A stretch of DNA of 50,438 nucleotides, taken from Halobacteriales archaeon QH_10_67_22 (lineage in GTDB: Archaea > Halobacteriota > Halobacteria > Halobacteriales > Haloarculaceae). Within the stretch, counting starts at the first letter, position 1. Each line of letters opens with the position of its first letter. Below, one piece after another: positions 1,306 to 49,571 of the stretch. The position numbers and the translations under genes are program-made. The notes under the pieces are model-generated. The model worked only from the letters and a program-made list of their open reading frames with translations. It was not told the DNA's origin and did not search any database. The DNA lies in NCBI GenBank assembly GCA_003021305.1, contig PXQN01000076.1:1-50438 (forward strand). The letters are read 5' to 3'.

Positions 1306-1412
1306 TACGGTCGTGCGTACCTAATTTCTGCAGTGTCGGTTCGGATCGGCGTTTCGGACCACGAGGGCGGTCGTCTATTTCGTGAGCACAAAAAGAATTA
1401 CACACGACCGTA
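1306..1412 (+). mobile_element. Family-1 MITE-like element, copy 1A (107 bp, complete)
   Basis: TIRs TACGGTCGTGCGTA / TACACACGACCGTA; flanked by TGA (1303-1305) and TGA (1413-1415). Confidence 0.85.
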
Positions 1413-4862: not shown

Positions 4863-5450
4863 TTGGATATGAACGGCAAACTCGGACGGCGGACGTTGAT
4901 CCGCGGCATCGGAGCGGCGGCGACAGCGGGTGTGCTGGCAGGTTGTTCGACTGACACGCGCGAGGACGGGGGCGATGGAGACGGTGGCGACGGCGAGATG
5001 ACAGACAGCGAGATGACCGACGGCGAGATGACAGACAGCGAGATGACCGACGGTGAGATGACCGACGGCGAGACCACCGAGAGCGGTGGCGGCGACGTTC
5101 CCGCGGAGGTCGACGACTACCTCAGCGAGGGCAACGCCAACCTGTACGAGGGAGAGGCAGTCGACGAGACCGGCACCGACAACCCGACGGTGATGGTCGG
5201 CGCCGGCGAGGGGTTCGCGTTCGACCCGCCCGCGATCAGAGTCTCGTCGGGGACGACGGTCACCTGGGAGTGGACCGGCGCAGGTGGCAACCACAACGTC
5301 GTCGAAAACGACGGCGAATTCGACAGCGGCGAGACCATCAACGAGGAAGGCCACACCTTCGAACACACGTTCGAGGAGAGCGGCAACTTCACGTACGTCT
5401 GCGAACCCCACGAAGTCGCGGGTATGCTGGGCGCCGTGGTCGTCGAGTAG
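4863..5450 (+). CDS. Halocyanin-like blue copper lipoprotein
   Basis: Lipobox-like AGVLAGCS after RR; cupredoxin motif GGNHNVVENDGEFDSG...FTYVCEPHEVAGMLGAVVV. Confidence 0.9.
   Translation: MDMNGKLGRRTLIRGIGAAATAGVLAGCSTDTREDGGDGDGGDGEMTDSEMTDGEMTDSEMTDGEMTDGETTESGGGDVPAEVDDYLSEGNANLYEGEAVDETGTDNPTVMVGAGEGFAFDPPAIRVSSGTTVTWEWTGAGGNHNVVENDGEFDSGETINEEGHTFEHTFEESGNFTYVCEPHEVAGMLGAVVVE
4995..5084 (+). repeat. Six tandem 15-bp units encoding (EMTD[S/G])n linker in halocyanin
   Basis: gagatgacagacagc / gagatgaccgacggc / gagatgacagacagc / gagatgaccgacggt / gagatgaccgacggc / gagaccaccgagagc. Confidence 0.9.
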
Positions 5451-6928: not shown

Positions 6929-9157
6929 ATGAGCGCCGACGCCGACCCCACGGAGCGCAACCGCCTCGACGAGGAGGAGAGTCCCTATCTGCGCCAGCAC
7001 GCCGACAACCCCGTCAACTGGCAACCCTGGGACGAGCAAGCCTTCGAGGCCGCCCGCGAGCGGGACGTGCCTGTCTTTCTCTCTATCGGCTACGCCGCCT
7101 GTCACTGGTGTCACGTCATGGAAGAAGAGAGCTTCCAGGACGAAGAAGTCGCTCGCCTGCTCAACGAGCAGTTCGTCCCCGTCAAGGTCGACCGCGAGGA
7201 GCGCCCCGACGTCGACAGCATCTACATGAGCATCTGCCAGCAGGTCACCGGCCGGGGCGGGTGGCCCCTCAGCGCCTGGCTCACGCCCGAGGGCGAACCC
7301 TTCTACGTCGGGACGTACTTTCCGAAAGAGGCCAAGCGAAACCAGCCCGGCTTCGTCGGGTTGTTAGAGGACATCCACAACTCCTGGTCGGACCCGGCGG
7401 AACGCGAGGAGATACAGAACCGTGCCCGCCAGTGGACCGAGGCCATCGAGAGCGACCTCGAAGAGACACCCGACCACCCCGGGGAACTCCCGGACTCGGA
7501 ACTGCTGACCGACGCGGCGGCCGCTGCACTCCGGGGCGCAGACCGTGAACACGGCGGCTGGGGTCGCGGCCAGAAGTTCCCCCACTCCGGCCGGTTGCAC
7601 CTGCTCGCACGGGCCGACCACGCCGACGACGATGGCCGTGACACCTACCGGGAGGTGCTGGTCGAAGCGCTGGACGCGATGGCCGACGGGGGGATGTACG
7701 ACCACCTCGGCGGCGGCTTTCACCGGTACACCGTCGACCGGGAGTGGGTCGTCCCCCACTTCGAGAAGATGCTGTACGACAACGCCGAACTCGCGCGGGC
7801 CTACCTTGCCGGCTTCCAGGTCACCGGGACCGACCGCTACCGCGACGTGGCGACCGAGACGCTCGGATTCGTCGAACGCGAACTCACCCACCCCGACGGG
7901 GGGTTCTACAGTACGCTCTCGGCCGAGAGCGCGCCGCCCGACGACCCCGACGGCGACACCGAGGAGGGCCTGTTCTACGTCTGGACGCCCGCCGGGGTCC
8001 ACGACGCCGTCACCGCCCGCGTCGAGGACGACGAACTGCCCGACGGTGTCGACGCCGAACGCGCGGCCGAACTGTTCTGCGAGCGCTACGGCGTGACGCC
8101 CGGCGGGAACTTCGAGAACGGGACGACGGTGCTGACCCTGGCGGCGTCGGTCGAGGCGGTCGCCGAGTCGGCGGGGCTGTCGACCGGGGCGGTCGCGGCG
8201 GCGCTTGACGCGGCCAAGCGAGCGACGGTCGCCGCCCGCGAACAGCGGCCGCGACCGCCCCGCGACGAGAAGGTGCTCGCGGGGTGGAACGGGCTCATGA
8301 TCTCGGCGTTCGCCGAGGCCGCGGTCGTCGACGACGGCTCCTGGGCCGAGTCGGCCCAGCGGGCGCTGGCGTTCGTTCGCGAGCACCTCTGGAACGCCGA
8401 GGCGGGACGGCTCTCCCGGCGGTACAAGGACGTCTCCGGGCCGCGCCCGGAGGCTCGGGAGTCGGGGTCTCCAGGCGGGGACGTCAAAGTCACGGGCTAT
8501 CTGGAGGACTACGCTTTCCTGGCACGGGGGGCCTTCGACACCTACGGCGCGACCGGCGACGTCGACCACCTGGCCTTTGCCCTCGAACTGGCGAGAGTCG
8601 TCGAGGCGGAGTTCTGGGACGCCGAGGAACGGACGCTGTATTTCACGCCACAGAGCGGCGAGTCGCTGGTCGCGCGGCCCCAGGAGCTGACCGACCGGTC
8701 GACGCCGTCCAGCGCCGGGGTAGCCGCACAATTGCTGTCGGCACTGGATGCCTTCGTCGACCACGACCGGTTCGGGGCGGTTGCCGAGGGCGTCGTCGAA
8801 ACCCACGCCCCGAGCATCGAAGCCGACCCCATCCAGCACGCCTCGCTGGTGCTGGCGGCCGACGACCTCGCGACCGGACACAGCGAACTGACACTCGCCG
8901 GTGACCGACCCGACGCGTGGCGCGAGAGCCTGGCGACCACCTACGTGCCACGCCGAGTGCTCGCGCCCCGTCCCGCGACCGACGACGAACTCGACGAGTG
9001 GCTTGGCGTTCTCGGGGTCGACGGTACTCCTGCTGTCTGGGCGGACAGGAGCGCACGCGACGGGAAACTGACCGTCTACGCCTGTCGGGCGCGGGCCTGT
9101 TCGCCGCCGACCCACGACGTCGAGGAGGCGCTTGGCTGGTTCGACGGGTCAGAGTGA
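6929..9157 (+). CDS. DUF255 / YyaL-type thioredoxin-domain protein
   Basis: [59 protein letters not shown] is characteristic of the family. Confidence 0.92.
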
Positions 9158-9237
9158 TAGTGGTTATTGGAGCGATTTACCGGGACGACCGCACGACTGC
9201 GTGCGATCGATCCGGAACAGATCTACAGTAATCACTA
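9158..9237 (+). mobile_element. Family-3 MITE-like element, copy 3A (about 80 bp)
   Basis: TAGTGGTTATTGGAGCGATTTACCGGGACGACCGCACG...CAGTAATCACTA; left flank is the TGA stop of the upstream CDS; right flank is CAA rather than TGA. Confidence 0.8.
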
Positions 9238-9639: not shown

Positions 9640-9741
9640 GCCACCTCGTTGCAGACCGACGGGCTTAGTTTCCCCGGGTGATGGCGACACTCCCTGCCGG
9701 TGACCGGGTGGTTTTCACGCCGGACGGCCTACCCTGTGGTA

Positions 9742-10644
9742 GTGAAATCGAACATTCTCGAGACGATCGGCTCACCGCTGGTCGAGGTCGAGGGCCCCGA
9801 AGGTGCGACCGTCGCGGCGAAAGTAGAGTCGTTCAACCCGGGTGGCTCCGCCAAAGACCGGCCGGCGCTGTGGATGGTCGAGGCCGCCGAAGCGGCGGGG
9901 ACGCTCTCGCCGGGCGACACCATCGTCGAACCGACGAGCGGCAACACGGGGATCGGACTCGCGATGGTCGGAGCGGCCAAGGGGTACGACGTGGTACTGG
10001 TGATGTCGTCCTCGAAATCGCCCGAACGGCGGGCGAGCATGCGCGGGTACGGCGCCGAGATCGAGCTGGTCGACGGGGACATCTCGGTCGCGCGCGAGCG
10101 CGCGAAGGAACTCGAAGCGCAGGACGGGTTCGTCCAGATGCGCCAGTTCGAGAACCCGGCCAACCCCCAGTCTCACTACGAGACGACCGGCCCGGAGATC
10201 GTCGAGGCCGTCGGCGACCGGACGGTCGACGCGCTAGTCGCCGGTATCGGGACCGGCGGGACGATCACGGGCGTCGGGCGCCGACTGCGGGAGGCCTACC
10301 CCGACGTAACGATCGTCGGCGTCGAACCGGCGACGAACGCCGTCCTCTCGACGGGCGAGGCCGGCGAGGACGACTTCCAGGGGATGGGCCCGGGGTTCGT
10401 CAGCGAGAACCTCGACCGGTCGCTGCTCGACGAGGTTCGAACTGTCGAACTCGAGGAGGCCGAAGACGAGTGTCGCCGCCTCGCACGCGAGGAAGGGATC
10501 TTCGTCGGCCAGTCCTCGGGCGCCTCGAACCTCGCGGCCAGACGGGTCGCTCGCGAACTGGTGGGGGACCTGCCGGACCCCCTGGTCGTCACCGTCTACT
10601 GGGACAGCGGCGAGCGCTACGTCTCGACCGGGATGTTCGACTGA
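9742..10644 (+). CDS. PLP-dependent cysteine synthase family protein (CysK/CysM)
   Basis: SFNPGGSAKDRPALWMVEAAE, EPTSGNTGIGLAMVGAAKGY and GIGTGGTITGVGRRL motifs. GTG start is a choice. Confidence 0.92.
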   Translation: MKSNILETIGSPLVEVEGPEGATVAAKVESFNPGGSAKDRPALWMVEAAEAAGTLSPGDTIVEPTSGNTGIGLAMVGAAKGYDVVLVMSSSKSPERRASMRGYGAEIELVDGDISVARERAKELEAQDGFVQMRQFENPANPQSHYETTGPEIVEAVGDRTVDALVAGIGTGGTITGVGRRLREAYPDVTIVGVEPATNAVLSTGEAGEDDFQGMGPGFVSENLDRSLLDEVRTVELEEAEDECRRLAREEGIFVGQSSGASNLAARRVARELVGDLPDPLVVTVYWDSGERYVSTGMFD

Positions 10645-10753
10645 TACTGTCGGACACGAGTACGTGAACACGCTCGTCGGTGTTTCACCATCGAGACGTC
10701 TCGGAGACCGCCAGACGAAGTATCGAGTGTCAACTTGCTTGTGTCCGACAGTA
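10645..10753 (+). mobile_element. Family-2 MITE-like element, copy 2A (109 bp, complete)
   Basis: TIRs TACTGTCGGACACGAG / CTTGTGTCCGACAGTA; central palindrome CGAGACGTCTCG; flanked by TGA on both sides (10642-10644 is the cysteine synthase stop). Confidence 0.85.
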
Positions 10754-11546: not shown

Positions 11547-11657
11547 AACGCGAGGACAGCCCGTTCGAACGAGGCGGTTCGTTTTCGAGTTCGTCGGTGG
11601 TGACGAGTCGACGTCGCACAGATGCAGAGCGAGTCGTCCGCGAGGGGGGTCCCGTCA

Positions 11658-11764
11658 TACGGTCGTGCGTATCTAATTTCTGCACTGTCGGTTCGGATCG
11701 GCGTTTCGGACCACAGGGACAGCCGTCTGTTACGTGGGCACAAAAGGAATTACGCACGACCGTA
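11658..11764 (+). mobile_element. Family-1 MITE-like element, copy 1B (107 bp, complete)
   Basis: TACGGTCGTGCGTA...TACGCACGACCGTA; flanked by TCA (11655-11657) and TCA (11765-11767). Confidence 0.88.
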
Positions 11765-11767
11765 TCA

Positions 11768-11847
11768 TAGTGATTATTGTAGCGATTTACCGGGACGACC
11801 GCACGATTGCGCGCGGTCGATCCGGAACAGACCGACAATAATCACTA
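11768..11847 (+). mobile_element. Family-3 MITE-like element, copy 3B (80 bp, complete)
   Basis: TAGTGATTATTGT...ACAATAATCACTA; flanked by TCA (11765-11767, shared with 1B) and TCA (11848-11850, the reverse-strand TGA stop of radB). Confidence 0.88.
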
Positions 11848-12585
11848 TCAGTGGTCCTCGGGCGTCGAGAGACCGCTATCGGTGATCTGGAACCGAACCG
11901 ATTCGCCCGCAGGGCGGGCACGGTGTTTCTCCAGGGTCCCACGCCGGTTGCCGCCGCGGAACCGCTCGACCCGCAGTATCGTGGCCGACCAGTGGTTGAG
12001 AGTGTGCCCGCCCAGCGCCCGCGAGCGGTCGCTCTCGGGGTCGGTGAACACCTGGTTGGTGAATGCGACCGCGATATCGTGTTTGCGGGCCAGTCCCAGG
12101 AGGTGAGCCAGTTGCCGGCCGACCGCTCGCAGGGCTTCGCCCTCCTCCTGTTCGGTGCGCTGGAGGCGGTAGAACCCGGTCGCGCTGTCCAGCACTATCA
12201 ACTCGACCGCGTCGACGAACTCCGCGGCGTCCCTGACGGCCTCCTCTTGCTCCTCGAAGGTGTGTGCCTCCGAGATGATGAGTCGGGACGCCACCTCGTC
12301 GACTGTGGGGGCCGCCCCGGACCCCCCGTCGGGTACGCCCTGCTGGGTATCGCTGTCTGTGGCGACCGCACTCGCGAGCTGTTCCATGCGCTCGACCGAG
12401 AGACCCTCGGTGTCGACGTACAGTGCGGACTCGCCGGTCGCGGCGAGTTCGACCGCCGCCGAGAGCACGATGTTGGTTTTCCCGGCCGCGGGCGGGCCGT
12501 AGATCTGCGTGACCGCGCCACGTTCGAACCCGCCACCGAGGAGGTCGTCGACCCCGCGACAGCCGGTCGAGATGCGCTCCGACAC
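11848..12585 (-). CDS. radB: DNA repair and recombination protein RadB
   Basis: VSERISTGCRGVDDLLGGGFERGAVTQIYGPPAAGKTNIVLSAAVELAATGESALYVDTEG, RecA-fold Walker A in RadB context; an upstream start at 12660 is possible. Confidence 0.9.
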   Translation of the reverse strand: MSERISTGCRGVDDLLGGGFERGAVTQIYGPPAAGKTNIVLSAAVELAATGESALYVDTEGLSVERMEQLASAVATDSDTQQGVPDGGSGAAPTVDEVASRLIISEAHTFEEQEEAVRDAAEFVDAVELIVLDSATGFYRLQRTEQEEGEALRAVGRQLAHLLGLARKHDIAVAFTNQVFTDPESDRSRALGGHTLNHWSATILRVERFRGGNRRGTLEKHRARPAGESVRFQITDSGLSTPEDH

Positions 12586-12745
12586 GGGCGTCCGTTGGCC
12601 GTGACCGGATAAAAACGCTGGCACTGGGGGGCGACTGGCTCCCGGACGACCGGTGTTCATTTCACAGAAGACACGTTCGATGGCGTTCTGTAGTGTCCGC
12701 CAAAGATTTTGTCGGCGTTATCTCCCCGACGAGCCACCAGGTGAA

Positions 12746-12874
12746 GTGAAACTTGACCAGGACGATGTCACCTGGATCTGTCAGAGGGTTGTTGATCACG
12801 ACCTCGATACCGGGTTGGTCGCTGACCAGTTCGAGATCAGCCGCCGCAGAGTCCAGCAACTCGCCAAAGAGTAA
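12746..12874 (+). pseudogene. N-terminal HTH remnant of an IS transposase
   Basis: VKLDQDDVTWICQRVVDHDLDTGLVADQFEISRRRVQQLAKE then stop; resembles N-termini of haloarchaeal IS630/IS481-like transposases but has no catalytic part. Confidence 0.6.
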
Positions 12875-12878
12875 CGTC

Positions 12879-13646
12879 ATGGTCCAGTGGTACAGCGAGC
12901 GAATCGCCACGCCGACGACGGAGGACGAGGTGTACGGCTACTGGGTGTTCGTCTTCGGTATCCTGATAGGGATATTCGGCATCCTCCTGTACCTGTCGAG
13001 TTACCCGCGGCCGGCGTCGTTTCCCGGTGAGGCGGGCATCGCGCTCAGCGCCATCGCGCTCGTGTTGGTGATGATCGGCCCGGTGATCCGGCTGCCGCTC
13101 CAGCGGACGGCGTCGCTGGTCTCGTACGCCGGGGCGCTCGTGTCGTTTCTCGCGGTCGTCTGGTTCATGTTCGAATACCCCGGCTGGCGAAACAGCGGGA
13201 TGGCCACGCCGGTCATCACGCTGTACGCGGTGGGGTTGGTGCTCATCGCGCTTGGCGCCGTCTTCGTCCCGGTCGTTCGCAGCCCACCGGCTGACCTCGA
13301 CGAGGAGGCGACGGTCGGGGAGTCCCCGGCCGCCATCCCGACCCCCAGCAAGGCGCGGTTCGAACTGTTCGAGGACCGGGCCGGGAAGTGGCGCTGGCGG
13401 CTCCGCCGCCGGAACGGCAACGTCATCGCCGACAGCGGACAGGGGTACGCCTCCCGGACCGGCGCTATCGACGGGATCCGGAGTGTCAAACGCAACGCAC
13501 CGAACGCCGAGGCTACCCTGCCCGACGACCTGGCTGACGGGAGTGAGGACACCGACGGCGAACGCGGCGATGGAGACGCCGACGACAAACACGACGATGA
13601 AGCCGGCGAGGGCACGGAAGCCGGCGAGGGCGACAGCGACGCCTGA
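12879..13646 (+). CDS. Membrane protein with C-terminal DUF1508/YegP-like domain
   Basis: Five or so TM helices, then FELFEDRAGKWRWRLRRRNGNVIADSGQGYASRTGAIDGIRSVKRNAP. Confidence 0.8.
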   Translation: MVQWYSERIATPTTEDEVYGYWVFVFGILIGIFGILLYLSSYPRPASFPGEAGIALSAIALVLVMIGPVIRLPLQRTASLVSYAGALVSFLAVVWFMFEYPGWRNSGMATPVITLYAVGLVLIALGAVFVPVVRSPPADLDEEATVGESPAAIPTPSKARFELFEDRAGKWRWRLRRRNGNVIADSGQGYASRTGAIDGIRSVKRNAPNAEATLPDDLADGSEDTDGERGDGDADDKHDDEAGEGTEAGEGDSDA

Positions 13647-13726
13647 TAGTGATTATTGTAGCGATCTACCGGTATGACCGCACGAACGCGTGCGGTCGAT
13701 CCGGAACAGACCGACAATAATCACTA
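13647..13726 (+). mobile_element. Family-3 MITE-like element, copy 3C (80 bp, complete)
   Basis: TAGTGATTATTGTAGCGATCTACCGG...ACAATAATCACTA; TGA flanks at 13644-13646 (CDS stop) and 13727-13729. Confidence 0.88.
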
Positions 13727-16653: not shown

Positions 16654-16680
16654 GCCGTCTGACTGCCGGTCTGTGTCTGA

Positions 16681-16764
16681 TACTGTCGGACACACGTACG
16701 TGAACACGCTCGTCGGTGTGTCACCATCGAGACGTCTCGGAAACCGCCAAACGAAGTATCGAGT
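16681..16764 (+). mobile_element. Family-2 MITE-like element, copy 2D (right end missing)
   Basis: TACTGTCGGACACACGTACGTGAACACGCTCGTCGGTGTGTCACCATCGAGACGTCTCGG...CGAAGTATCGAGT, then unrelated sequence; left flank TGA. Confidence 0.8.
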
Positions 16765-35416: not shown

Positions 35417-35523
35417 CACGGTCGTGCGTACTTCTTTTGATTCCCACGAAACAGAAGACTATCTCCGTGGTCTGAAACGCCGATCCTCACCGACACTGCC
35501 GAAATTGGGTACGCACGACCGTA
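35417..35523 (-). mobile_element. Family-1 MITE-like element, copy 1C (107 bp, complete)
   Basis: CACGGTCGTGCGTA...TACGCACGACCGTA, internal sequence reversed relative to 1A; flanked by TCA (35414-35416) and TCA (35524-35526). Confidence 0.87.
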
Positions 35524-38681: not shown

Positions 38682-38745
38682 TACGGTCGTGCGTAACTAA
38701 TTTCTGCAGTGTCGGTTCAGATCGGCGTTTCGGACCACGGAGACA
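38682..38745 (+). mobile_element. Family-1 MITE-like element, copy 1D (right half missing)
   Basis: TACGGTCGTGCGTAACTAATTTCTGCAGTGTCGGTTCAGATCGGCGTTTCGGACCACGGAGA, then unrelated sequence; left flank is the TGA stop of the S9 peptidase. Confidence 0.8.
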
Positions 38746-39361: not shown

Positions 39362-39468
39362 TACGGTCGTGCGTAATTCTTTTGATTCCCACGAAACAGA
39401 AGGCTCTCTCCGTGGTCCGAAACGCCGGTCTTCACCGACACTGCCGAAATTGGGTACGCACGACCGTA
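39362..39468 (-). mobile_element. Family-1 MITE-like element, copy 1E (107 bp, complete)
   Basis: TACGGTCGTGCGTAATTCTTTTGATTCCC...TACGCACGACCGTA, reversed relative to 1A; flanked by TGA (39359-39361, CDS stop) and TGA (39469-39471). Confidence 0.88.
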
Positions 39469-49540: not shown

Positions 49541-49571
49541 TAGTGATTATTGTAGCGATTTACCGGTACGT
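49541..49571 (+). mobile_element. Family-3 MITE-like element, copy 3D (left end only)
   Basis: TAGTGATTATTGTAGCGATTTACCGGTACGT, starting exactly after the gltB TGA stop (49538-49540); rest absent. Confidence 0.75.

Follow-up and report, generated by a model that had tools for sequence, protein, structure and literature searches.

Two different mini-elements stacked at the radB stop codon of a haloarchaeon share a single TGA/TCA triplet

The window analysed here, by which we mean the whole stretch of 50,438 nucleotides, belongs to a haloarchaeal MAG of Haloarculaceae-like affiliation (G000; 2.52 Mb in 94 contigs, 77% complete). Its minus strand carries radB, whose product matches Rad51/KaiC/RecA-type Pfam models; RadB-type homologues were aligned in 40/40 relatives, and named radB homologues are found in Halosimplex, Haloarcula, Halorhabdus and others. 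At the 3' end of the gene, the plus strand reads TCA, a 107-bp element of family 1, TCA, an 80-bp element of family 3, and TCA (Table 1). The left and right ends of the family 1 copy are TACGGTCGTGCGTA and TACGCACGACCGTA, and those of the family 3 copy are TAGTGATTATTGT and ACAATAATCACTA. Both elements are non-coding, have terminal inverted repeats (TIRs) and are associated with a duplicated TGA/TCA; the family 3 copy is a near-full palindrome (MFE -44 kcal/mol, z -7.5). The earlier note had described one TCA as serving both elements and the last TCA as the reverse complement of the radB stop. Direct reading showed the layout to be exact, and the minus-strand open reading frame confirmed the stop.

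Table 1. Features of the radB stack and complete copies of the three element families elsewhere in the window.
Feature	Positions	Strand	Basis
TCA, outer copy of the family 1 target site	11655..11657	.	sequence
Family 1 element, 107 bp, perfect 14-bp TIRs, ~5.6% from family consensus	11658..11764	+	
TCA common to both elements, serving family 1 as its right and family 3 as its left duplicate	11765..11767	.	
Family 3 element, 80 bp, 13-bp TIRs, 2.5% from consensus	11768..11847	+	
TCA, reverse complement of the radB TGA stop, inner target-site copy of family 3	11848..11850	-	
radB, RadA/RecA-type recombinase paralogue, 270 aa, ending CAC TGA	11848..12660	-	
Stand-alone copy of family 1, flanked by TGA/TGA	1306..1412	+	
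Stand-alone copy of family 1, flanked by TCA/TCA (+ strand)	35417..35523	-	
Stand-alone copy of family 1 at the end of a 296-codon open frame, flanked by TGA/TGA (+ strand)	39362..39468	-	
Stand-alone family 3 copy, adjoins TGA stop of ORF 6929-9157, with a decayed CAA as its second flank	9158..9237	+	
Stand-alone family 3 copy, adjoins TGA stop of ORF 12753-13646, TGA/TGA	13647..13726	+	
Family 2 copy, 109 bp, TGA/TGA, directly 3' of the TGA closing a 320-codon open frame	10645..10753	+	

Both families recur throughout the genome, together with a third one, family 2, which is 109 bp long and has the ends TACTGTCGGACAC. Allowing up to 2 mismatches, ~269 ends of family 1, ~266 of family 2 and ~300 of family 3 were counted in 2.5 Mb, compared with 5, 28 and 9, respectively, for reversed-pattern controls. 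This corresponds to ~130-150 copies of each family and to ~400 copies altogether in 2.5 Mb. Copy statistics were obtained from sampled stretches amounting to 0.79 Mb, or ~31% of the assembly, in which 151 complete copies with nearly constant lengths of 107, 109 and 80 bp were found. A perfect TGA/TGA (or TCA/TCA) pair flanks 114/151 of these copies (family 1, 36/43; family 2, 23/45; family 3, 55/63), and most copies without matching triplets look like carriers of decayed duplicates. The mean pairwise divergence is 11.9% in family 1 versus 6.2% in family 3, and the hairpins that the elements form are strong (z -4 to -9). The 320-codon open frame that closes in front of the family 2 copy of Table 1 belongs to the frame region of ORF 9678-10667, with a PALP-family gene at 9700-10644. 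The window also contains one-ended, truncated copies of families 1, 3 and 2 (38682-38745, 49541-49570, 16680-16764 and 2000-2084). A 15-bp tandem repeat resembling GACGGCGAGATGACA is located at 4974-5093, inside or at the edge of overlapping open reading frames.

That the elements insert and duplicate the triplet can be observed at several loci. A family 2 copy is nested in a family 1 copy at an internal TGA (L058:8316-8424, that is, G000:C6:28316-28424), flanked by the host TGA (left) and by CGA (right), a duplicate with one substitution. This nesting also gives a relative date. The radB gene of Halorhabdus amylolytica closes with GAAGACGTC-TGA, behind which lie an 80-bp element belonging to this superfamily and a further TGA; H. 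salina has an identical GAAGACGTC-TGA that runs straight into intergenic sequence, leaving an empty site. The comparison of these two species indicates that the radB stop was hit independently in another genus. On plasmid pHmuk01 of Halomicrobium mukohataei, an element flanked by TCA on either side coincides exactly with a stop annotated in RefSeq. The earlier note had proposed comparing the radB 3' region of related strains for states with no, one and two elements. This comparison was possible across species: radB carries no element in the same-genus relative G001 and in H. salina, and an independently acquired single one in H. amylolytica; no single-element intermediate of the present locus was recovered. 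No allele with family 1 only, or empty, was found at the radB locus itself, the radB proteins of the nearest relatives being ~71-78% identical.

The arrangement seen at radB is not confined to this gene. Genome-wide, 18 pattern matches to a junction of family 1, triplet and family 3 were obtained, three of which were excluded, two being ends of family 2 and the third an unrelated flank; the control gave none. The remaining 15 stacks lie at differing genes, show all four relative orientations and involve two family 1 subfamilies, and family 1 is truncated to differing extents, down to a few bases. The nearest match of the radB family 1 half is a stand-alone copy (4/107 differences), and the family 3 half ties with many stand-alone copies (2/80 differences), so that neither half has a closer match in another stack than among the stand-alone copies. 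The region that gave the second-best match to the whole stretch (C82) was rejected as a further composite, since its two elements occupy the stops of a convergent gene pair and have no triplet in common. The pair was accordingly not seen to arrive at new sites in a fixed arrangement as one composite unit: the refuting observation that the earlier note had envisaged, recurrence of a fixed pair, was looked for, and what turned up were 14 further stacks that vary in orientation, subfamily, truncation and gene. Independent stacking at ~14 other places implies that the target is copied by the first insertion and left open for the next one. The earlier proposal of sequential insertion into a regenerated TGA/TCA triplet is thus supported by the varied stacks and by halves that are nearest to stand-alone copies. 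The best explanation, to which we assign a probability of roughly 0.88, is that two unrelated mini-elements used the same 3-bp target in separate transposition events. Given a short target that regenerates itself and a high copy number, such a stack is to be expected as a by-product.

A feature absent from the earlier note is the bias in the order of the stacks. Read on the TGA strand, 14/15 stacks have the order gene, TGA, family 3, TGA, family 1 (P = 0.0005 against 1:1). In the flanks of cleanly duplicated copies, the family 3 half-site preceding TSA is symmetric, with frequencies of 0.64 for G, 0.64 for A/T and 0.69 for C, from which we deduce that family 3 prefers approximately GACTSAGTC, a palindromic target. 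The family 1 half-site is weaker (S-T-C/G), with A nearly missing at the last position. Acidic haloarchaeal proteins often end in GAC-TGA (Asp-stop). A model based on these target preferences predicts ~10.5 insertions of family 3 onto family 1 and 3.9 of family 1 onto family 3, or ~14.4 stacks, compared with 15 seen. When family 3 is second, the model places it on the gene side in 66% of cases, and the observed 14/15 has P = 0.019; the bias therefore exceeds the predicted gene-side fraction of 0.66. When family 1 is second, it is placed gene-distally in only 43%, and 14/15 has P = 7e-5. Full-length copies of family 1 are present in 5/14 gene-3-1 stacks, and those of family 3 in 10/12 of the stacks not cut by a contig end.

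Taken together, the target model, the decay of the family 1 partners and the higher divergence of family 1 favour the insertion of family 1 first and family 3 second. At radB, family 1 would likewise have reached the stop before family 3, an order that rests on statistics. The reverse sequence, in which family 3 came first and family 1 later entered the gene-distal TGA, would yield the same final order; several family 1 subfamilies exist, so that part of the activity of this family could be recent, and in the stack at C18:15.7 kb it is family 3 that is the more diverged. We nevertheless consider this sequence doubtful in view of the low probability that the model gives to a consistently gene-distal choice and of the family 1 halves being more decayed than the family 3 halves, although geometry makes the outer element the more likely one to be truncated. 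It is important to mention that stacks of the same family are missing: there are no 3-3 junctions genome-wide where the target model predicts 6.6 (P = 0.001), and no 1-1 junctions where it predicts 4.1 (P = 0.017). This absence could be due to target immunity, to instability of identical neighbours or to assembly collapse in the MAG. Stacks of families 2 and 3 number 2, compared with ~11 expected from the same model.

Each insertion duplicates TSA (TGA/TCA), so that the gene retains an intact TGA stop and the new TGA comes to lie beyond the element, where it is available for a further insertion. At radB, family 1 would insert first at the stop, and family 3 would later take the gene-side TGA, its approximate GACTSAGTC target suiting GAC-TGA-like gene ends and tolerating a family 1 end on the other side; a mini-element would be expected to prefer GACTGAGTC and to tolerate GACTGATAC. 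Mobilisation would probably depend on a putative DDE-type transposase supplied in trans. No autonomous element with matching ends was found in the 1.7 Mb of sequence searched, the host assembly being 77% complete. None of 30 PF01609 loci examined has matching ends of its own, and no PF13586 transposase was detected in six Haloarculaceae-type genomes. A 1491-bp TCA-flanked insertion sequence in G004 (G004:C1:2844054-2845550; L146:1008-2498) mimics an autonomous parent and was rejected as such: it is a different, DDE_Tnp_1 insertion sequence with the ends CATCCGTCTTTAGC (CATCCGTCTTTAGCTAAGA) and a ~10-bp duplication (CTTTACGAAC), inserted inside a 77-bp TCA-flanked mini-element of MITE type. Viral contigs gave no paired match to family 1, and 55 16-mer matches to family 3 in them were taken as chance; a phage collection gave no element match.

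Instead of being a target duplication made by a transposase, the fixed TGA might be the core at which a site-specific recombinase crosses over. The triplet is indeed almost invariant, and a core crossover would leave junctions identical to those of a target duplication. This possibility is unlikely, since the half-sites of the target show two-fold symmetry about TSA and the ends form perfect inverted repeats, features that fit DDE transpososomes, and no recombinase was linked to the elements. Returning to transposition, we raise as a rather unlikely possibility a system restricted to Haloarculaceae-type haloarchaea, in which an unrecognised enzyme may use GACTSAGTC and exploit Asp-stop ends (GAC TGA); stops could then act as self-regenerating, harmless landing pads on which the families stack in a fixed order, with same-family stacking excluded by target immunity.

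The relationship of the elements to stop codons was analysed with genes called by a simple codon-usage caller. Copies lie on called stops in 20/43 cases for family 1, in 33/63 for family 3 and in 38% for family 2, the baseline being 13.8% of all non-coding TSA triplets. When the TSA triplets of the same intergenic gaps are compared, family 1 shows no excess (19 on stops versus 17.5 by equal choice), family 2 shows a modest one (17 versus 11.1, P = 0.005), and family 3 shows a clear one, with 28 versus 15.9 by equal choice, or versus 22.2 when its motif is considered (P = 0.0007), so the target motif explains about half of the family 3 excess. A strong recognition of stop codons was therefore rejected, given the lack of excess in family 1 and the modest within-gap excess in families 2 and 3. 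Stops are used mainly as a result of the TSA target, of the disappearance of intragenic insertions and of the family 3 half-site. Since the stop is duplicated, the protein suffers no harm from the insertion. It could be argued that the elements are dedicated functional structures, such as 3' UTR hairpins or terminators, which selection has put or maintained at stops, and not insertions that are simply tolerated, as about half of the family 1 and family 3 copies lie exactly on stops and the elements combine strong hairpins with fixed lengths. We regard this as very unlikely: the fold symmetry comes from the inverted repeats, both orientations occur at stops, the same-gap counts reveal no preference of family 1 and attribute about half of the family 3 excess to the motif, and no Rfam match was found for the elements. 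Least credible of all, and hardly to be entertained, is a 190-bp composite of families 1 and 3 transposing as one unit, which would account for a pair recurring 15 times with one common triplet and a strongly biased order, but conflicts with the four orientations, two subfamilies, assorted truncations and stand-alone nearest matches described above, and with stand-alone copies being about ten times as numerous as stacks in each family.

Related elements of 77-80 and 107-109 bp are present in other Haloarculaceae genera. In three of these genera, the TGA/TCA triplets on the two sides are the same in 33/38 end-paired candidates, almost all of them 72-80 or 107-108 bp long and with ends of the type TASNG. 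Stacks of two different elements sharing a TGA/TCA triplet also occur in other genera (G004 L185:3153-3314 and G017 L195:3787-3948), with other end sequences. A degenerate end pattern gave 179 matches in one complete genome versus 0 for the control, and relatives were found on plasmids of Haloarcula, Halapricum, Halocatena and Halomicrobium. In the open-access literature searched, we found no description of TGA-targeted elements.

Comparison with known classes of mobile elements places the three families close to MITEs, which they resemble in being short and non-coding (80, 107 and 109 bp), in having TIRs (13-14 bp), in duplicating a short target (114/151 copies, and the empty radB site in Halorhabdus) and in their high copy number. 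No autonomous relative with matching ends was found for them in the sequence searched, and they are unlike MITEs in that the TSA duplication is almost invariant and ~400 copies are present in 2.5 Mb. The small mobile repeats (SMRs) of Haloquadratum walsbyi, SMR-A of ~110 bp and SMR-B (HqIRS41) of 80 bp, have inverted terminal repeats and no known related transposase, and are often joined to other mobile elements (PMC3119063). Reportedly, they cause no target duplication, and target PATE/IS605 palindromes or other mobile elements (PMC3119063). Judged by that description, the present elements share with SMRs the ~80- and ~110-bp size classes, the inverted terminal repeats, the lack of a known related transposon and the frequent joining to other mobile elements; they differ in duplicating TGA/TCA and in landing in intergenic DNA and on stop codons. 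PATEs and other IS200-IS605 derivatives have neither TIRs nor duplications, whereas perfect TIRs and duplications are found here. Some groups of the IS5 family are insertion sequences with 3-bp TNA target duplications. The present elements are similar to these in their 3-bp duplication, fixed outer T and A, and symmetric target, and unlike them in that PF13586 was missing from the six genomes and none of the 30 PF01609 loci had matching ends of its own. The wider pattern is that of MITE/SMR-like elements of two fixed lengths, with parallel stacks in a fixed order and a TSA target whose symmetric site matches the Asp-stop ends of genes.

The structure of the radB stack, the duplication of the triplet, the independence of the two parts and their recurrence are shown by the data. 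With ~400 copies, three families and one 3-bp target, the genome amounts to a natural experiment in which stacks of this kind reveal in what order orphan mini-transposons inserted and which target rules they follow. By duplicating the stop codon itself, a mobile element can strike the 3' end of a gene and leave it undamaged, and both the absence of same-family stacks and the identity of the transposase that moves these elements become testable questions in haloarchaea.
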